This document shows, in pieces, positions 8,752 to 41,947 of a DNA stretch of 48,975 nt; the stretch's first letter is position 1; each line of letters begins with the position of its first letter. Where the stretch lies: positions 1-48,975 of the IMG/VR virus record IMGVR_UViG_3300042988_001645. One strand, written 5' to 3'. The notes beneath the pieces are model-generated. The model was given only the letters and a program-made list of their open reading frames with translations, was not told where the DNA came from and did not search any database. This DNA comes from a virus. A program made the position numbers and the translations under genes.

Positions 8752-9404
8752 TGGGCATCATCGTGGGAATCATGGGAAATGCCAGGTCTGGGAAGGACAC
8801 GACGGCTCTCTACCTGGCGGACAAGCACCGCTTCATCCGAGTCGGGCTGGCAGACCCCATGAAGAGGTTCTGCAAGGAGGTCTTCGACTTCACGGACGAG
8901 CAGCTCTACGGGGACAAGCGGGACGAACCAGATACTCGGTACCCCCGTGTCGTCGAAAAGGGGTTGCGTGGGGAGGTCTGTGAGCACCTCACCCCGCGCT
9001 ACGCGCTCCAGACCCTCGGGACCGAGTGGGGGCGTAACTGCTACGACGACATCTGGATCGAGCACGGCGTCCACGTCGCGCAGGAACTCATCGACGGGTA
9101 CGCCACGTACTCCGCCAAGGAGGGCCTCCAGTTCACCGAGAAGGACGTCGGCATCGTCCCGGGCGTCTTCTTCTCGGACCTCCGCTTCATCAACGAATAC
9201 AACGCCGTCAAGAAGGCCGGAGGGCTCATGGTTCGCATCAAGCGGCCCGGAGCCACCGGCATCCTCGGCATCACTGGGCACCAGTCCGAGGAAGAGCAGA
9301 AGAGCATCCCAGACGACAAGTTCGACGTCATCCTCGACAACTCAGGGGACTTCGCCTTCCTCTACGAGCAGATAGAGGGGAAGATCATCGCAAGGAGTCT
9401 GTAG
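8751..9404 (+). CDS. Deoxynucleoside monophosphate kinase
   Basis: A 217-residue P-loop kinase. The P-loop is GNARSGKDT (9-17), followed by an LADPMKRFCKEVF segment and a lid-like RIKRPG region, typical of phage dNMP kinases such as T4 gp1. These phosphorylate dNMPs (dTMP, dGMP and modified dCMP) to dNDPs to feed DNA synthesis. Length and motif order fit the family. The start overlaps the previous stop (TAATG) and GGAGG lies at 8741-8745, a good ribosome site. No thymidylate synthase or dCMP-modifying enzyme is in this window. Confidence 0.85.
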   Translation: MGIIVGIMGNARSGKDTTALYLADKHRFIRVGLADPMKRFCKEVFDFTDEQLYGDKRDEPDTRYPRVVEKGLRGEVCEHLTPRYALQTLGTEWGRNCYDDIWIEHGVHVAQELIDGYATYSAKEGLQFTEKDVGIVPGVFFSDLRFINEYNAVKKAGGLMVRIKRPGATGILGITGHQSEEEQKSIPDDKFDVILDNSGDFAFLYEQIEGKIIARSL

Positions 9405-19825: not shown

Positions 19826-22606
19826 TCAGTTGAACCCGACGATCGTGAAGGGGAGATTTATAAACACTGGGGCATCCCCCTGATTGGGGTCGTGCCACAT
19901 GTATCCAGCGGAGCACACAAATGAAACCCCGTCGCCGCTAGGAACAGCCTTGTTCCAGAAAAACCAGGCGTAGCCATTGTCGGCTTGATTGACCGACATG
20001 GCCACCCACGTGGTGGCTGAAGGGAATGTGACTACGCCACCAGACGCCGTCACCCCAGCCGTACCACTGATCAGGTTCCCAGCCGAATCGCACTTCGCAG
20101 CGCCTGTTACGGTTGCATTTCCAACGGACGGGAATGTGTGCGTGTGATCCGACGCGGCGTACGGATGGGAATGAGTCGGAGCCTTTCCATCCAGAGCATT
20201 CTGGAGCCCGGTGACCTCCGAGATCGAGTGGTTGTGGGCTCCGGTAGTGTGGGTGTGGTCCGACGCAGCGTATGGATGTTCGTGGGTCGGCGCTTTCCCG
20301 TCTAGAGCGCCCTGGAGTCCCGAGATCCCCGAGATCTCGTGACCGTGCGTGTCTGAAGCGTATGGATGGGAATGAGTCGGGGCTTTCCCGTCCAAAGCAC
20401 CCTGAAGACCCGAGATCCCAGAGATCTCATGGCCATGCGTATTCAGAGAGTACGGGTGGTCGTGCGTCGGTGCTTTCCCGTCCAGGGTAGTTTGGAGCTC
20501 AGAAACATCGCTGATGGCGTGGGTGTGGATCGTCGGTGCCTTGCCGTTGATCTGGCCCTGGAGCCCAGTATCGGCCACCCCCCACAGACGATGCTCTTCA
20601 GCGATCGCATCGCTGAGGTCGATGTCGGCCTGCGACCTGATGCCGGCCTCTTCCGAGATGGCCAGGCTCAGGTCTGCGTGGGTGTGGAGAGATTTTGCGT
20701 CCGAACCAGTACCGCCGGTCAGGATATCGACGTGGTCCTTTGTGAGGGCAACGTCCTGCTCTCCGATCTTCGCGAGAGTCAGGTAGCCCTTCTCTCCGTC
20801 GAAAGTGGCCCGGACGCCGGGGACGCCATTCACGCCACCTGCCTGAATGTACCCGGCAGCGTAGAGCGTTCCTCGAACTGTGGTGACCGCCCCGCTCTTG
20901 CCGATGTCGACGCCAGTCGCTCCGGCCCCGATGTCGACATTCGATCCTGCCGTGTCGAGCGTTCTACGAACCGAGCCATCCGGGGTCCTCAGGTTACTGA
21001 GGACAACCTGCGTACCGCTCGGAGCGATCGGGTTCGTGGGGATGAGCCGAACGTTGCTGAGCTCGATGACGACGTTGGCTGGAGTGGCGGCGAAGTAGAA
21101 GCCGCCCGAGAAGCCGATCTGGATGTCCGGCGTGGCGCCACGGATGTTGATGGACTGAGAGACTGTGTACCCACCAGCCGGGGCGACCTGATTCTCCAGG
21201 AGGACGAGCTCGATGGTATCGGCACCTGGAGAGGTAGCGACCCAGGCCAGGGCCGTGACGAGATCCGGGAAGTCGCCGGAGGTGCCGACCGTGACGAACG
21301 GCGTGTACGGCATGAACGACGGAGCGGATAGCCAGTCCACCGGACGGTTTCGGTAGTTGGCCGGCACGGCGGCCCAGATATCCACCGTCTGTCCAGAAAC
21401 GATGGGCGGGGAAATCGTGAGCTTGACCCCGACAGAGAACGGACCTCGGTAGACCGTCAGAGTCCCATACGAGCCGCCCGACTCCTTGACGGTGGAGAGC
21501 TCGACGTATGGGTGGTGTTCGTGGACGATCTCGCCGACTCGTGCCAGCTCTTGCGCGGACATGGGGCGCAAGGCGACGTGGGCCGGGTCCAGGATCTCCT
21601 CGACGATCCAGCGGTAGCCGTTGTTGCTCCAGCTCTTGGTCGAGGATCCGGTGATCCTGGCGTAGTCGCCGACTCGCACTCCCGAAGAGCTGCCAATACG
21701 AACGACCCTACCGTTCGGGATTTCGAGAATGTCGGTGACGAGGACCTGTTTCTCGGCCCCCAGAGCCTGCGTGCCGTCGGCATGGGCCACCGCCGTCACG
21801 GCGGAGCGGGACTGCTTCCCGGTGCTCTCGTCGACTAGGAAGAAGAACCTGGTCAGGGTAGTGGGAGAAGAAGATGCGTTGAGGATCTCCCCCGCCCCGA
21901 AACCAGACGGACCGCCATCCACGAAGACCTTCTGGTCCGGGGCAATGATCCCAAGATCGAGAACAGTCGCCGGGCCAGGGGTCGAACCGATCTTCTTGTA
22001 GACGATCTCGTCGCGCATCAGCTCGCTGTAGAGAACGTCCGTGTTGGACATCACCCGACCGAACACCCGGGTCAGGGTCTCGGAGGTGACGCTCTCGCCA
22101 GGCACCATGAGCGCGGTGTCGTAGGCGTTGCCGATGCGTCCTTCTGGCGCACTGGGCTGGTCCCCACCGGCGGCGAAGAAGTCCTGCTCGCTGATGTTGA
22201 ACCCAAGAGCGGTGGCGGCGGAGCCTCCAACGACGCGGAGGTAGATGTTCGAGGAGGACGAGATCTGCGAAGAGCGAACTCCGATGCACCCGTCGGCATC
22301 GAAAGCGACGAGAGCCGCCTCCTCGAATGCCGGGCCGTTCAGGTCGAGAAGGGCCTGGGAAAAGGCGACGATGCCGGTGGTGGAGGCGGAGACGCTGGCC
22401 TCCACGGTGATGATGGATCCATCCGCCGGACTGACCGTCTCGATCTCCAACGTGCCGCCGTTTGCCGGCAGGCCGGAGAAGTACGGCAGCGCCTGGTTCT
22501 GGTCGGCGTTGTTGCGCCTCTTGTTGCCGCGGATGGACGGGGTCGGCGGTCGACGGAGAGCCGTACCGACGAGATGGGGCCGCCTGAAGTAATTCATCTT
22601 CGACAT
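19826..22606 (-). CDS. Tail fibre protein with His-rich repeats
   Basis: A 926-residue fibre. The N-terminal about 350 residues are beta-rich and probably attach to the baseplate. A middle segment (about 480-640) has beta-helix or beta-sandwich features. Residues about 685-829 consist of repeats of the type DGKAPTHxHPYA…HGHEISGISGLQ with many HxH triplets. The last about 100 residues (from FPSVGNATVTGA) form a likely C-terminal receptor-binding tip. HxH motifs in T4 gp37 coordinate metal along the trimer axis; the same is likely here. GGGAG precedes the ATG. Confidence 0.85.
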   Translation of the reverse strand: MSKMNYFRRPHLVGTALRRPPTPSIRGNKRRNNADQNQALPYFSGLPANGGTLEIETVSPADGSIITVEASVSASTTGIVAFSQALLDLNGPAFEEAALVAFDADGCIGVRSSQISSSSNIYLRVVGGSAATALGFNISEQDFFAAGGDQPSAPEGRIGNAYDTALMVPGESVTSETLTRVFGRVMSNTDVLYSELMRDEIVYKKIGSTPGPATVLDLGIIAPDQKVFVDGGPSGFGAGEILNASSSPTTLTRFFFLVDESTGKQSRSAVTAVAHADGTQALGAEKQVLVTDILEIPNGRVVRIGSSSGVRVGDYARITGSSTKSWSNNGYRWIVEEILDPAHVALRPMSAQELARVGEIVHEHHPYVELSTVKESGGSYGTLTVYRGPFSVGVKLTISPPIVSGQTVDIWAAVPANYRNRPVDWLSAPSFMPYTPFVTVGTSGDFPDLVTALAWVATSPGADTIELVLLENQVAPAGGYTVSQSINIRGATPDIQIGFSGGFYFAATPANVVIELSNVRLIPTNPIAPSGTQVVLSNLRTPDGSVRRTLDTAGSNVDIGAGATGVDIGKSGAVTTVRGTLYAAGYIQAGGVNGVPGVRATFDGEKGYLTLAKIGEQDVALTKDHVDILTGGTGSDAKSLHTHADLSLAISEEAGIRSQADIDLSDAIAEEHRLWGVADTGLQGQINGKAPTIHTHAISDVSELQTTLDGKAPTHDHPYSLNTHGHEISGISGLQGALDGKAPTHSHPYASDTHGHEISGISGLQGALDGKAPTHEHPYAASDHTHTTGAHNHSISEVTGLQNALDGKAPTHSHPYAASDHTHTFPSVGNATVTGAAKCDSAGNLISGTAGVTASGGVVTFPSATTWVAMSVNQADNGYAWFFWNKAVPSGDGVSFVCSAGYMWHDPNQGDAPVFINLPFTIVGFN
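20120..20551 (-). repeat. Tandem repeats coding for His-rich fibre shaft
   Basis: About five in-frame units lie inside the fibre gene, each beginning GKAPT. Units 2 and 3 are 30 codons each and differ at few positions; unit 4 is 37 codons and the first is 22. Each contains one or more HxH triplets (HDH, HGH, HSH, HEH, HTH, HNH). Because the units are similar at DNA level, recombination could change shaft length. Confidence 0.85.
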
Positions 22607-26200: not shown

Positions 26201-27503
26201 GTGCTTCGCCATCCACGATGACCACCCGTCCAGGGGCCAGCGAGGCGAGAGCCTCGTTCCCGACGTAGGGAACGGTGATGGTGTCGGTGAGTTCCGTCTC
26301 AATGGGCGGGATGAGAAAGCCGACCGGACGGTAGATGCGGCACTCCGGCTGGGGCGAATCAGCGGTGCTGGAAGACGGCGGCTTTCGATCGACGATGACG
26401 TTCGTACCGGCCTTCGTGACGATCCGGTAGGTGCCGGAGTTCACGCCCTGGGTGACGTGGATGAAGTCACCGACGCGCACCTCGTCCATGCCTTTCGGCA
26501 CTTCTCCGACAAAGACAGGGAAGCCGAGGAGCTGCGAGAGAATGAAGTCCTCTCGCCTGGGTCCGCCCACGTTCCAGTTCGTCGACTGGAAGGCGAAGTC
26601 GAAGTAGACCTCCTTGACGATGGCGTCCGTCTTCTCGTCCGGGGGTGGATTGTCGATGGGGTTCTTGGGAAGAACCTCGGACACGTAGAAGCCGCCCGGC
26701 CTAGGAGAGAGTCCAGTGATCGTGTAGGTCTGGACGTTTTCCGGGTTGCGGCTGTAGACGATCTGGAAGGGGCGGTTGGCGAGGTCGGGGCGGACCGCAC
26801 CCTGAACCGAGATGAGCTCGTTGCGGCTGACGATGATGGCGAGGCCGAACTCTCCCGTGGCCCCCGTTGCGGCAGCGGCACCAGCCTGCTCGTTCCCGAT
26901 GAAGAAGGTCGTCGTTTCGGGGTCGATGGGGAGCCGGGGCTCGTAGCAAAGCCAGCGCCGCTGGAACTGGTCCTGGATGTCCCGGACGCTCTTGTTGAAG
27001 TCGACCTGGTAGAGCTTCAGAAGCTCGGCTCCGGAGATCTGTACCAGAGCAGACCAGAGAGTCTCGAAGAGTTCCTTTCCCTCGACCTGCGACCACACAT
27101 CTCGAAGGTAGCTCCAAATGAACTTGCCGTCCGGGACGAGACCGCGGGCATGAGGCACCATGATGGCGCGCACATCCACGGACTGTCGAACGATGACGCT
27201 CTCGTACACCCCATTCGACGCCACCATGCCGACGACGTACTGCCCCACCACATCCGGGGCGAAGGAGACGATGGCGCCGGAGTCGTCGAGCTTCTTGAAT
27301 CCCTCCATCGCGATCTTCGATCCGATGGGGACGGAGATGAACGAGAAGTCGTAGGTGAGAGGAAGTCCGTCCGGCTCTGTGCTGAGGCGCGCATCGACTG
27401 AGATGACGGCACCGATGATGGCGTATTCGCTGCTGACCGTGAGCGCCCCGATGGGCTGCTTGCGCTCCTCGATGACCCGGCCCGTGAGCAGGAAGGAGGC
27501 CAT
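23262..27503 (-). CDS. Giant baseplate/tail structural protein (1413 aa)
   Basis: The N-terminus has an Ig/PKD-like module (about 20-110; SVDARLSTEPDGLPLTYDFSF and VGQYVVGMVASNGVYES). Then comes a helical region typical of tail proteins (FIWSYLRDVWSQVEGKELFE, about 130-190). The remaining about 1200 residues are beta-rich and hold repeated units of the type GD-x-[FL]-x-[IV]-…-G-x-Y-x-I (for example near residues 343, 700 and 1090). The place downstream of the J-like gene and upstream of the fibre fits a gp7/I-like baseplate wedge and fibre anchor. The ribosome site (GGAAGGGG) is inside the readthrough-like extension of the preceding gene. Confidence 0.75.
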   Translation of the reverse strand: MASFLLTGRVIEERKQPIGALTVSSEYAIIGAVISVDARLSTEPDGLPLTYDFSFISVPIGSKIAMEGFKKLDDSGAIVSFAPDVVGQYVVGMVASNGVYESVIVRQSVDVRAIMVPHARGLVPDGKFIWSYLRDVWSQVEGKELFETLWSALVQISGAELLKLYQVDFNKSVRDIQDQFQRRWLCYEPRLPIDPETTTFFIGNEQAGAAAATGATGEFGLAIIVSRNELISVQGAVRPDLANRPFQIVYSRNPENVQTYTITGLSPRPGGFYVSEVLPKNPIDNPPPDEKTDAIVKEVYFDFAFQSTNWNVGGPRREDFILSQLLGFPVFVGEVPKGMDEVRVGDFIHVTQGVNSGTYRIVTKAGTNVIVDRKPPSSSTADSPQPECRIYRPVGFLIPPIETELTDTITVPYVGNEALASLAPGRVVIVDGEARTIVRVSTDLNQRVPIIVLVTDERVLIPGRRGMFWRAPHTLVSTTQDFEALGVTAGDQLVVAISMSDGTAVDVPLQVVGVDRNRIGFILSTETALDGEMPPIPQSLLQSIAQRFRLETVRILPDKSLSLGGKALQVYNGVSSVFFQKAYYNVELSTTSTFDVAGEKFQVTPRGVIRNRRIPVDGTVRSIPALQEYIRQPEVEEIDGKMYQVRGEERFELAHAPIVLTERSDYLVDGDVAFSGNLTFRAGTNLINAEGGDFVDIGLMAGDTFRIVMPLALAGDYPISEVISRNRLKLSRPVPWVQPLPKILSCAVEIHRKSGGQFLRFIPGRFTAASPAPQRLWAEVTFFDNSENIERNFGMLVGLTRQDLENVTTNASYRQAVAGLMFAYVNGPAIDKIRLGASLLLGLPFTEKRGIIRAVDKDYRKNAAGEAVMGRILVEDIDSTNQPQNVLRIYTFPIDLNSTLSGVDTNPATEEEYKVGDIVEAFASLSKGVEIQDFTSLRSGLTSSQLLQRYHSARIRINDNIFQSSEIQLVSSFLRRITPSYVALTITNTAEYNDSVTIKDKLKFKARANPFLGPMFSDHVGYLLGIPPFLDSKTLRYIYPTRWDEKFYWLRRAGEDLVVDPASIFRLKVEGAGLISNRENEFFDPPIARVGDKLLILNSINKGLYTISELTESTIKVSDGPYQWVPLEAPMHYGILREMSALLRAGTVVSVTPFSYTFETSTYELSDIVLDTAQLRSDSVAPGDWFVVSDGVRARRHTITEVIASGDGTIWDTLRVSPPVTLISEGDPLQYRIYREQLFVSPSEETYEFVAVDGYAVAFSDPFFHAIADIGDELQLVQDDEMRVIVTDPINGVLNMNLPSGTYQAKLIKKAHSDSQFSLDIPKKFVTDGVKLTVTGIPDALVTDDVATWSFGTFNPGEAGFRQGDLFLAEGDTQDVGYGPGAYPIAEVSATSVKLTVALASSGMTACAVARRL

Positions 27504-27506
27504 CGG

Positions 27507-27626
27507 CTATACCCCTTCCGCCGCGTCGACGAGGAGCAGGGACCTGCCGCCGAAGACGTACTTCAGGTTCGGCTGTTCCTGGTAGAGCTCGACTTCTCGG
27601 CCCGAGGAGATACCCCACCGAATGTA
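27507..27626 (-). other. In-frame coding-like extension after UAG
   Basis: Immediately after the TAG that ends the lectin-fold gene, the same frame stays open for 39 codons (YIRWGISSGREVELYQEQPN and 19 more) up to a second TAG at 27507-27509, three bases before the next ATG. It has no start codon of its own. It reads like the end of the last beta-sandwich domain and fills what would otherwise be a 123-base gap in a block where genes touch or overlap. Confidence 0.55.
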
Positions 27627-29903
27627 CTACCACTCGGAGAGGCAGTTCACCTCGGAGTTGAAGTTGCCGAAAGCGATGGTGGGGTCCTGGTCCGTATCGT
27701 CATACTGAGGGACGAAGCGGTCCCAGGGGATGGAGATGATGGGGATGTCTTTGAGAAGATTCCGGTCCCACACCTCGACTGCCCGGCCAGGAGAGTAGAC
27801 GAGGCGGTAAGAGCCGACGTCCCCATCCATCGTCATCCAGGACATATCGGCCGAATGGAGCTTTCCGAGTTCCGTCTGGTTGAGGATGTCGTCGAGCCCG
27901 TTCTCTCCGCCAGGGATGATGGCGATCTTCCGACCGTGCTGCCCACAGTCGAAGAACCCGAGATGCAGTTTCGAGGGCTCGTTGTCGGGGGTATCCACCG
28001 TCCCGAAGTAGACGGTGATGCCAGCCCCAGTCCACATGGCCGGGGCGTTCGAGGTTCCTTCCTTGTCGGTGTAGGAAACCACGCGGCCGCGGAAGTCGAT
28101 CTGAAGCCCACTCAAGTAACGAAACTCCCCGACTCTCGCGTAACGATAGTAGGCGTATTCACCCGTCGGGGCACCGAAGCTCGACTTCTCGATCCGCTGC
28201 GTCTTGTTGGCGAACGAGAACTCGTTCTTGCCGTTGTGTATGGGCTCAAAGAACGTGAAGGAGTGCTCGGGAGGCGCGCCATCTCGCCCCTCCCAGGCCC
28301 TGTAGTTTGTGAGGTACGAAAGAGAGCCGATCTTCATCTCCATGTCGGCTTCTACATTCCGCAAGAAACCGACGTCGACCACGCCCTTGGAAGGTTGAAG
28401 GAAGTTGGTGGGTGTCGGAAGGGGAAGGGGAATGTCGTCCGGCCCAATCAGCGGCAACGACATGAACGGCACGTCGACATCTTCGATGTAGAGGGCGAGC
28501 TCGCTCCGAGCCCGGTCGAGCGTCAGCCGGACGAGCTGCATCGAGGAGTAGTCCACGGGGCGTAGAGCCCCACCGTCCCGGACCACGTGGTAGCCGAGCT
28601 CGATATCCCCGGGCGCGGTCGGGTCCTTCACCAATCCGTAGGTCTTCACCAACTCGGCTTCCAGAGCAACGACCTGGTAGATCTTCTCGGCGTCGTTCAC
28701 TCGAAGCCCGAAGCCGACGTTGGCCCCGGCCAGGTTGTCGATGCTACCCGCCATCCAGGCCTCGATGGAGAAGCCGGAGGTACGCCCTTCAAGCACAGGC
28801 TCTTCTCTGCGCAAGAACGAGTCCCCGTTTCCGCTCTTCTTCATGGTGGCGTAGGTGGGAATGGTCTGACGACCAGGCTGGAACCACCAGCTCAGAGAAG
28901 GGGCCACCATGCCCGCTGGCGTCCACCGGCCAAGAGTCTTGTCCGTAGGAAGACGCCTGTCGTATGCGAAGAACGATGCGGGGAGGTCTGGGTAGATACG
29001 GAGGGAATGGCCGGACTGGGCCAGCTCGCGATCGACACTCAGCGGGGCATACGGATAGATGGTGAAGTCCGAGAATCGAACGACATCGGACTGTCCTCCC
29101 CCATTCCCAAAGAAGAGTCGAACCAGATGTTCCGGACCGTCTCGGCGCTGGGGAAAAGTCTCCGAACCCGGCGAGAACTCCCCGAGTGCGCCCATGTCGA
29201 AGGTGCCGATAACTCTAGGGGTCTCCCCCTCCCCAGCGATCCATAGCTGGATGGTCTGCCCGGTCTCGTCGACGTAGAAAAAGATCGTGAGCAACGAACT
29301 GGTGCCGAGAAGGTCCCATCCGACTTGAATGGTTTCCTGCTGCGGCCGCGCTGAGTCGAGAGCGTGGAGCGGACCGCCGACCACCAGCCCACCACCAGAC
29401 TGCGGGAAAACGAAGAGCCCGGTGTTACGAATCCCGTACTCGAACCCCATATAGAGTGGGGCCAAGAAGGTTTCGTCACTCCAGTACCGACTCTTCATCT
29501 CCCAAGTGTGGCTCACCTCGAAGGTGATGCTGGCTAGGACCGGGCTGTACCTCTCGACTGGCAGAGTCAGCTCGTAGATGCCGGCGTCCATCCCCTCTTC
29601 GCTGCCCGGCCCGATGAGCAGTCGATTGCCGTCCGCCATGCGGGGCAGCACCGAGTGCGTTGGACGTCTGCGCTCGGGCGTCTCTACCTTCACATCGGCA
29701 AGGAGCTTCGTGTCGACTTCGGGCAGGATGATGTGGCCGTCGTCCTGCGCGTGCATCACCGTGTTCGACAGTGCCAAGCGGGCGCTGATCGTCCCACCGA
29801 CGACGTACTTGTCCGTCGACTTCAAGCTGAATACGACTGGGGTACCCGGGACCAAGGGCTCCGCGTTTTCGCCGAGGGTTGAGTTGACAAGCTCTAGAGC
29901 CAA
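27627..29903 (-). CDS. Tail-associated protein with ConA/LamG-like domains (TTG start)
   Basis: A 758-residue protein up to the first TAG. Starting from TTG 29903, a beta-rich N-terminal region is followed by three ConA/laminin-G-like sandwiches. Their closing strands look like VVRFSDFTIYPY, EMKIGSLSYLTNYR and, at the very end, NCLSEW-stop-YIRWG. Such lectin-like folds bind glycans or form rigid spacers in fibres and baseplates. The gene lies just after a plus-strand gene and has its own -10-like TATAAT upstream. The stop codon interrupts the last motif (see the 39-codon extension). No ATG or GTG is available upstream in frame. Confidence 0.75.
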   Translation of the reverse strand: MALELVNSTLGENAEPLVPGTPVVFSLKSTDKYVVGGTISARLALSNTVMHAQDDGHIILPEVDTKLLADVKVETPERRRPTHSVLPRMADGNRLLIGPGSEEGMDAGIYELTLPVERYSPVLASITFEVSHTWEMKSRYWSDETFLAPLYMGFEYGIRNTGLFVFPQSGGGLVVGGPLHALDSARPQQETIQVGWDLLGTSSLLTIFFYVDETGQTIQLWIAGEGETPRVIGTFDMGALGEFSPGSETFPQRRDGPEHLVRLFFGNGGGQSDVVRFSDFTIYPYAPLSVDRELAQSGHSLRIYPDLPASFFAYDRRLPTDKTLGRWTPAGMVAPSLSWWFQPGRQTIPTYATMKKSGNGDSFLRREEPVLEGRTSGFSIEAWMAGSIDNLAGANVGFGLRVNDAEKIYQVVALEAELVKTYGLVKDPTAPGDIELGYHVVRDGGALRPVDYSSMQLVRLTLDRARSELALYIEDVDVPFMSLPLIGPDDIPLPLPTPTNFLQPSKGVVDVGFLRNVEADMEMKIGSLSYLTNYRAWEGRDGAPPEHSFTFFEPIHNGKNEFSFANKTQRIEKSSFGAPTGEYAYYRYARVGEFRYLSGLQIDFRGRVVSYTDKEGTSNAPAMWTGAGITVYFGTVDTPDNEPSKLHLGFFDCGQHGRKIAIIPGGENGLDDILNQTELGKLHSADMSWMTMDGDVGSYRLVYSPGRAVEVWDRNLLKDIPIISIPWDRFVPQYDDTDQDPTIAFGNFNSEVNCLSEW

Positions 29904-29932: not shown

Positions 29933-29938
29933 ATTATA
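29933..29938 (-). promoter_or_regulatory. Candidate -10 element for the distal tail operon
   Basis: On the minus strand the hexamer TATAAT lies about 30 bases before the TTG start of the lectin-fold gene, in the short gap left by the oppositely oriented zinc-ribbon gene. The -35 region 17 bases upstream (TGTGCA) matches the consensus poorly, so a sigma-dependent variant promoter or chance are both possible. Confidence 0.35.
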
Positions 29939-29954
29939 CGGAAGGGGGTCGAAG

Positions 29955-30260
29955 GTGCACAGCTTCAAGGAACTGAAGCCCGATGAAATCAGGGCCATTT
30001 TGGATGCTCGAAACGAGAAGGGCGAAAAGCTCTACGAAGACGTTCTCACGCCCCTGACCTCCCAAGAGGCTGCCCTCTTTCAAAACTCCCCCTGCCCGAA
30101 GTGTGGGTCGGCAGCCGCCCCCATGCTGAATCTCCAGAGGCCCTTCGCCTCGAACTCCCCTCTTCCGAACAAGATCCTTCGATGCGTGGTGTGCGGCACC
30201 GAGTTCGACCCCCGCACCCAGCTCATCCACTTCGCGAACATCACTTACGCTTCAGATTGA
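29955..30260 (+). CDS. Zinc-ribbon protein encoded against the tail operon (GTG start)
   Basis: A 101-residue protein starting at GTG 29955, preceded by GGAAGGGGG. The N-terminal half is helical (FKELKPDEIRAILDARNEKG). Two Cys knuckles, CPKC and CVVC, separated by about 29 residues, form a zinc ribbon; the end reads TQLIHFANITYASD. It is the only plus-strand gene in the about 31-kb minus block, and its 3' end overlaps the 3' end of the J-like gene by 20 bases tail to tail. No family is recognised; an inserted accessory (moron-like) gene is a fair inference. Confidence 0.7.
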   Translation: MHSFKELKPDEIRAILDARNEKGEKLYEDVLTPLTSQEAALFQNSPCPKCGSAAAPMLNLQRPFASNSPLPNKILRCVVCGTEFDPRTQLIHFANITYASD

Positions 30261-40200: not shown

Positions 40201-40491
40201 CTACTTCTCCTTCTTGGACGGGACGGGTGGGCCGCCGATCGCGTCCGTAACCCGTGCGGCCGCAGCACCGGACTCCTGGGAAGACTCGATGGCAGTGTCC
40301 ATGTGCTTTCGCATCACGGAGTAGATGTTCGTGACGCTGTGCTCGTCCGTCGTCTCGACGTCTTCTCCTCCAAAAGGTTTCTGGATAGGGGTGAAGAGTT
40401 CGTCGTCCGGTTTGGAGTCGATCGCCTTCTCCGCCGCCTTGAGGGAGCGGTTGATGTGGAACTTGGCGCACAGCTTCTTCCAGAAACTCAT
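40201..40491 (-). CDS. Small hypothetical protein
   Basis: A 96-residue protein starting at ATG 40491, overlapping the previous stop (ATGA). The start is basic (MSFWKKLCAKFHINRSLKAA), the rest hydrophilic (ESSQESGAAAARVTDAIGGP), ending KKEK. It abuts the structural gene downstream. No transmembrane segment or family is seen. It is probably an accessory protein for its membrane-protein neighbour. Confidence 0.6.
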   Translation of the reverse strand: MSFWKKLCAKFHINRSLKAAEKAIDSKPDDELFTPIQKPFGGEDVETTDEHSVTNIYSVMRKHMDTAIESSQESGAAAARVTDAIGGPPVPSKKEK

Positions 40492-40856
40492 CGGTCGCCT
40501 CGATCTCGACGAGGAGATGGCTGAACCCCGTTGAACTGGATGTTGAGCATCGAGATCATGTCGCCAATGCGGTCTAGGGCCAGCGTCGTTTCCTTCGAAG
40601 CTGCTGCGTGCTCGGACACCATGTCCACGAGCTTGTTCGAGATGCTCTGAGAATCGTCGACTCGCTTCTCCTGGGCCAAAACGACTCTCTTCCCAACCTC
40701 GTCCACCGTCGCCGCGAAGTCCTTCGCCATCTGCCGAGCGTCGTTGTTCAGGCGGACGTTGTCCCTCCACAGCCAGATCGTGGACAGCACGGGCGCGATC
40801 ATGAAGAGACCGATGATCCCGTAACTCTTCACGACAGCCTGGATTAGATCGTCCAC
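40488..40856 (-). CDS. Membrane-anchored coiled-coil protein (GTG start)
   Basis: A 122-residue protein with an N-terminal membrane segment (about 10-30; YGIIGLFMIAPVLSTIWLWR), then a long amphipathic helix (about 32-105; AKDFAATVDEVGKRVVLAQE). Its GTG start adjoins the previous stop. Single-span anchors with coiled coils occur in holin-like or spanin-like phage proteins, but it lies in the structural operon far from the lysis genes, so a second holin/antiholin or tail-membrane component are both possible. Confidence 0.6.
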   Translation of the reverse strand: MDDLIQAVVKSYGIIGLFMIAPVLSTIWLWRDNVRLNNDARQMAKDFAATVDEVGKRVVLAQEKRVDDSQSISNKLVDMVSEHAAASKETTLALDRIGDMISMLNIQFNGVQPSPRRDRGDR

Positions 40857-41066
40857 TCATTTCCCCGACAAGTACGCAGCCATGTCCTTTACAGCGACAG
40901 AAGAAACTACCTTCGTGTTCACCGCCTGGATGCCGCGCCCCCCTGTCCGCCCCTTGAGAATCGCCTCCAGGACCTGCGCCTCGTTCTCCAGGCGCTTCTT
41001 CTCCTTCTTGACGTACTCCTTCGTCGTCTTCTGGAGATCCTTCAGCATGTTGATCTGAACGGCCAT
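40857..41066 (-). CDS. Small basic helical protein
   Basis: A 69-residue protein starting at ATG 41066, which overlaps the stop of the sigma-like gene. A charged helix (LKDLQKTTKEYVKKEKKRLE) is followed by RTGGRG and a short hydrophobic end (VVSSVAVKDMAAYLSGK). An in-frame start at 41138 would lie inside the sigma-like gene without a better ribosome site. Function unknown. Confidence 0.6.
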   Translation of the reverse strand: MAVQINMLKDLQKTTKEYVKKEKKRLENEAQVLEAILKGRTGGRGIQAVNTKVVSSVAVKDMAAYLSGK

Positions 41067-41947
41067 CAGTCCACCACCCTCTCCTTCAAGAGCTTCTTGA
41101 TGGTGTTCTTGGCCTTCGAGACCTTCGAGACCTCCCACTTCAGTTTCTTGGCGATGTCGCCAGACTTCGTCATCGGCATTCCCCCGTCACGGGGGTAGAT
41201 GAGCTCGTGGACCTTCTGCTCATGCGGCTTCAGGTCGTGGTAGATGATGTGCGCTACCTGCTCGTACGGATCGAGACGGCGGTTCCCAGCGCCTTCGACC
41301 TCTTCTCCGCCGCCGCTGATCTCGTAGTCGCGGCGCATCTCCTTGTGGACTTTCAAGACGGACTTCTCCGGTAGTCCGGAGTGCTGGGCGATCTGCTTCA
41401 AGGTCGGCTCGTACCCGAGCTTGTCCGTCAGCTCCGCCTTCGCCGTCTCGAACTTGTTGAAGATCTGGCTCATCGGCTCGGTGACGCGGGCCGTGTTCTG
41501 GAGCTTCACGGCTTCCCGCTTCAAGCTCTTCAAGCCCCAGTTCAGCCAAGTGGACGGGCTCGCTCCGTTCGGATTCGACGGTGCGTACCGAGTGAAGGCC
41601 TTGTGGGCGAGCTCGTAGGCCTTCCCCTCCAACTGAACCCGGTTCACCTGGGCGCCGCGGAACTTGTTGAGGTTCTTGTTCACGACGCCACTCATGGCGC
41701 CCATGAGGTCATCAAACCTCTCCCCCTTCTCGTGCTTGGGGGCATCCTTCCAGGCCTTCCACAGCGTCAGGTCCTTGTTGACCTTCGGAGACGCTACCCC
41801 CTTGTACGAAGCGACAGGGGCAACCGGCTTGAGCGGCTCGACCTTGATGGGCTTGTAGGATGGAGCTTTGGGCGTGGCTCGCGCCTGGGCAGACAGTTTC
41901 GCGAGGACCCAATCAAGGGCCTCGACCTTGTCCCCCTGGGCGCTCAC
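41066..41947 (-). CDS. Sigma-70-like RNA polymerase sigma factor (GTG start)
   Basis: A 293-residue protein with sigma-like architecture. After a Pro/Lys N-terminal tail (about 1-60), region 2-like helices run through AHKAFTRYAPSNPNGASPST and WLNWGLKSLKREAVKL. Region 3-like sequence contains ELTDKLGYEPTLKQIAQHSG, which matches the 'lgrePt..eiA..lgi' pattern. A C-terminal helix-turn-helix (SGDIAKKLKWEVSKVSKAKN) corresponds to region 4. It would recruit RNA polymerase to phage (probably late) promoters. It lies inside the virion operon, between small membrane-protein genes and a virion-like protein, an unusual place for a transcription factor. Confidence 0.7.
   Translation of the reverse strand: MSAQGDKVEALDWVLAKLSAQARATPKAPSYKPIKVEPLKPVAPVASYKGVASPKVNKDLTLWKAWKDAPKHEKGERFDDLMGAMSGVVNKNLNKFRGAQVNRVQLEGKAYELAHKAFTRYAPSNPNGASPSTWLNWGLKSLKREAVKLQNTARVTEPMSQIFNKFETAKAELTDKLGYEPTLKQIAQHSGLPEKSVLKVHKEMRRDYEISGGGEEVEGAGNRRLDPYEQVAHIIYHDLKPHEQKVHELIYPRDGGMPMTKSGDIAKKLKWEVSKVSKAKNTIKKLLKERVVD

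Follow-up and report, generated by a model that had tools for sequence, protein, structure and literature searches.

Stop codons in viral structural genes can be bypassed by programmed readthrough, as in the production of the A1 protein of phage Qbeta, and known readthrough adds a separate domain to the protein. In the gag-pol gene of murine leukaemia virus, the stop codon that is read through is UAG (PMC5009743). UAG can also be decoded as an amino acid; genetic code 15 phages read it as Gln (PMC9523058). The in-frame UAG analyzed in this study, which lies near the 3' end of a phage tail-protein gene, shares with viral programmed readthrough the in-frame extension after a structural-gene stop, with the murine leukaemia virus case the identity of the stop, and with the code 15 phages the presence of a UAG within the frame of a late structural gene. 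Judged by the features tested, the UAG does not belong with either programmed readthrough or the code 15 phages, and we conclude that it is very probably an isolated, unprogrammed nonsense substitution, namely a real recent allele or a single-base consensus error.

The window, that is, the whole stretch of DNA analyzed, is a 48,975-base IMG/VR virus record derived from a metagenome as a virus contig, and its relevant features are collected in Table 1. The tail-protein ORF ends in ...NCLSEW-UAG (minus strand), and the same frame stays open for the 39 codons translated as YIRWGISSGREVELYQEQPNLKYVFGGRSLLLVDAAEGV (27626-27510, minus), of which EVELYQEQPNLK is one peptide. The second UAG is followed by CCG and then by the ATG of the next gene at 27503 (minus). 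The original prediction, which was made from the letters of the DNA, had described the tail-protein frame, the position of the UAG and the open continuation accurately, and the 123-base gap that it noted between the genes (27626-27504) is correct. The junction layout, 758-UAG-39-UAG-Pro-Met..., is alike in two related phages (L003 and L004, with UAA-CCG-ATG) and different in another (L002), and is therefore not special to this record.

Table 1 Features at and around the interrupted tail-protein gene, in window coordinates.
Feature	Position	Strand	Remarks
Baseplate wedge gene upstream, 1529 aa	30241-34830	minus	phrog_6, E 1.9e-9; gene order conserved
Tail-protein ORF as it stands	29903-27627	minus	758 codons + UAG, TTG start; homologues in the same place in relatives
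Predicted RNA hairpin, 7 + 6 base pairs, UAG in 6-base loop	27611-27644	minus	RNA folding; not predicted in relatives
In-frame UAG	27629-27627	minus	Sense codon at the same column in 15/15 relatives
Extension, 39 coding-like codons	27626-27510	minus	Homology to the C-terminus of the proteins of relatives
Second UAG	27509-27507	minus	Matches the end point of most relatives' genes
Next gene, 1413 aa	27503-23262	minus	Same order in relatives; begins in the extension's frame, 3 bases beyond the second UAG

Several other loci of the window were noted along the way. A small gene (29937-30230, minus) separates the baseplate wedge gene from the tail-protein gene, and L002 and L005 have matches to it in the equivalent position. 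A 926-aa protein encoded downstream of the tail genes (19826-22606, minus) carries phage tail repeats (PF12789) in three stretches and is a possible fibre-type protein. An ORF at 41066-41947 (minus), inside the tail/structural block, matches sigma-70 region 3 (PF04539, E 1.7e-7). Two overlapping frames occupy 40201-40860 (minus). The first (40856-40488) encodes a 122-aa protein with a hydrophobic N-terminus that looks holin-like by eye, and the gene after it starts with MSFWKK at an ATGA junction and ends at 40201, a layout that is similar in L002. Codon bias switches frame near 40488, and we considered a programmed frameshift there and rejected it in favor of ordinary overlapping genes joined at the ATGA. 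Another suspected in-frame UAG, at 9402-9404, is the end of a gene, with the ATG of a separate gene immediately after it.

We scored the extension with a codon-usage model derived from the tail genes of the phage itself. The log-odds of the extension was 0.335 per codon, compared with 0.336 +/- 0.148 for true 39-codon stretches, and all off-frame stretches of equal length scored below the extension. The 39 codons past the UAG are genuine coding sequence. They were also considered as a separate small protein, and this reading was rejected because none of the codons is an in-frame ATG, GTG or TTG. Against the L002 homologue, the extension shows 50% identity and a pN/pS of 0.46, measured over a short segment with synonymous sites near saturation, and the preceding part of the same domain shows 51% identity and a pN/pS of 0.60, again with synonymous sites near saturation. 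This comparison, a weak test given the short segment and the near-saturated sites, gives no sign that the extension would have been under long relaxed selection. Normal codon usage and normal conservation of the extension are what one would see with a stop that is very recent or not real.

Querying viral_contigs and phages directly with the 758-aa protein returned no match, genome_contigs yielded no relative, and a search that allowed any codon at the site found no further record of the same phage. Relatives were instead reached through the neighbouring genes (the 1529-aa gene upstream and the 1413-aa gene downstream), with L007, L008, L014, L015, L060 and L064-L068 added by synteny and profile comparison. 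Together with L002-L006, this gave 15 relatives from IMG/VR, which are phage records reaching about 210 kb that share the gene order; L007/L008, L003/L004 and L066/L067 are near-duplicates, so that the independent lineages number fewer than 15. The homologue in L002 is 46-48% identical and those in L003-L006 are 25-33% identical, and their alignments all run past the stop as far as the extension goes. The residues at the UAG column in the 15 relatives are E, D, D, E, K, K, K, T, E, M, L, R, R, R and A; a stop is present in none of them, and all continue to matching C-termini. The sense codon in every relative strongly supports the suspicion that the UAG occupies a residue position and that the downstream frame belongs to the domain. 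The motif of the closest relatives is mostly W-x-[YF]-[FILV]-R-[WFY]-G, and the guess that a residue belongs at the position of the stop is therefore right for the family. The pattern that would have spoken against it, with homologues all ending at SEW and unrelated sequence beyond, is not the one that the relatives display. The intact gene is about 798 codons long, and the UAG removes the last 5% of the tail protein.

To place the stop in the protein, we modeled residues 528-798 with AlphaFold2, treating the UAG as a residue (mean pLDDT 76, pTM 0.77). The C-terminal part of the tail protein is predicted to adopt a ConA/LamG-like beta-sandwich fold. Foldseek matched the model to ConA-like lectins (VIP36, Emp47p) and to phage LamG-type proteins, such as the LamG protein of Ralstonia phage RSL2, with best E-values of 9.2e-6 in the PDB and 2.2e-6 in the viral library. 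While the beta-sandwich is common to these domains and the one modeled here, the TM-scores are modest, only about 0.3-0.5, and the tail protein has no Pfam or PHROG family match by sequence up to E 0.1. The UAG corresponds to residue 232 of the model, in the middle of the last predicted beta-strand (226-239), and W231, R235 and G241 (domain numbering) are nearly invariant in the family. The 30 residues beyond this strand form a low-confidence tail that is predicted to be unstructured. The original prediction had also proposed that two earlier domains of the protein end in comparable strands. This holds for the middle domain, which is homologous to the C-terminal domain (hhalign probability 98.4%) and has a Lys aligned at the UAG site; for the first domain, the hhalign probability is only 9.6%.

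Programmed or regulated readthrough of the UAG, yielding short and long forms of the tail protein, would agree with an extension that is in frame and conserved, and with the stable hairpin that holds the UAG in its loop. The hairpin (z -3.0 to -3.7) is among the most stable structures across the two genes, where 5 of 218 folding windows reached z <= -3. However, it is not predicted in the relatives, and the 110 nt from the UAG onwards are no more structured than shuffled sequences (z +0.27). With the hairpin absent from the relatives' predictions, the stop located in the loop and nothing structured downstream, we rejected the hairpin as a readthrough element; a ribosome with the UAG in its A site would presumably have opened it already. 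In contrast to the viral programmed systems, the stop here is unconserved, being absent from all of the relatives even though they keep the extension, and it has no downstream stimulator. It also falls inside a beta-strand rather than ahead of a separate domain, and the short form would lose half of a strand that belongs to the core of the fold. The stop is followed by U, and UAG followed by U is regarded as a context of efficient termination in E. coli. We therefore consider regulated readthrough, which had been among the options proposed, to be highly improbable, given that no relative has a stop at the site and no structure lies downstream. A newly arisen, phage-specific readthrough element, in which the hairpin loop would set the share of proteins with a complete last strand, is just as improbable; if true, it would give mixed baseplates.

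A different way to obtain the full-length protein would be suppression, by an amber suppressor tRNA of the phage or the host or through a local code in which UAG is sense. That phages can read UAG as Gln is established (PMC9523058). Large tRNA arrays, with 13-40 matches each, are present in six of the eight relatives searched, so the phage may carry one in the missing part of its genome; the window, which is a fragment, contains no tRNA genes. The arrays of the relatives (L046-L052) contain 13-43 tRNA genes each and cover most amino acids. Yet among about 188 tRNAs in six relatives, none was called with a CUA, UUA or UCA anticodon, the anticodon of one L050 tRNA being ambiguous. A tmRNA gene was also found in the phage record L051 (4937-5308, minus), with the tag ANDNVELPAWMIGASAPEFRAAA. 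Moreover, UAG terminates 17 of the 43 coding segments in the window, including the two UAGs described here, which leaves 15 other genes that it ends, and an interior UAG occurs in one gene only. UAG is therefore a working stop here, and the view that there is no general stop reassignment is upheld; the 1413-aa gene ends in UAG at the point where its L002 homologue has its C-terminus. The difference from the code 15 phages lies in a single UAG in a single gene, in the 15 other genes ended by UAG and in the fact that no suppressor tRNA was identified among the kin. Suppression is the faintest of the prospects considered, and the earlier suggestion of suppression in a special host fares no better, with no stop at the site in the relatives and no suppressor tRNA identified in their arrays. 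The unconserved stop, the lack of downstream structure and of any identified suppressor, and the UAG-U context together leave a programmed mechanism with little support.

Of the four origins that had been proposed, regulated readthrough and suppression are thus unsupported, and a nonsense mutation or a sequence error remains. This is an ordinary kind of cause, and we found no difference between our locus and such cases in phage structural genes: there is a single interior stop in a gene that is otherwise intact and conserved, all relatives have a sense codon at the site, and UAG can be reached from several of their codons by a single substitution. About 22 kb of conserved tail genes contain neither another interior stop nor a frameshift, and the relatives' genes are free of interior stops across 40,624 aligned columns. 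Of the single substitutions in these genes, about 3% would create a stop, and one nonsense change therefore gives no useful bound on the error rate. Selection should act against a nonsense change in a conserved structural gene, and finding one in a consensus is unexpected unless it is an error or a tolerated loss.

These two origins are about equally likely. A single-base sequencing or assembly error, in which case the actual genome carries a sense codon at the site and encodes an intact protein, comes close to an even chance. It would account for a single stop amid conserved genes that are otherwise intact and for an extension that is fully conserved. The record is assembled from a metagenome, and the site follows GG within an imperfect inverted repeat, a kind of context that is linked to Illumina errors. 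On the other hand, consensus errors are rare in assemblies of ordinary depth, and the conserved genes bear no other sign of error, such as a frameshift. The probability of a true recent nonsense allele, in which most of the product would stop at residue 758 and lack the final part of the last strand, falls a little short of one half. Such an allele is a single-base step from codons seen in the relatives, and of the about 40 C-terminal residues that it would cost, the last 30 are predicted to be unstructured; the lost half-strand, however, includes near-invariant residues of the family and is kept by every relative.

In either case, the substitution lies near the 3' end of a baseplate-module tail-protein gene that has about 798 codons when intact. 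If the base is real, most ribosomes would end at codon 758, and the main product would then lack the second half of the last beta-strand of the C-terminal domain together with the tail, and would probably be impaired. Ordinary low-level near-cognate decoding of the UAG would supply at most some full-length protein. In itself, a lone nonsense change or sequence error in a single virus record has little significance. Annotation should present the locus as an interrupted gene, about 798 codons long, rather than as a 758-residue protein followed by a gap. In addition, the comparison brings together a divergent family of ConA/LamG-like proteins of the baseplate module, which had gone unrecognised by Pfam and PHROGs.
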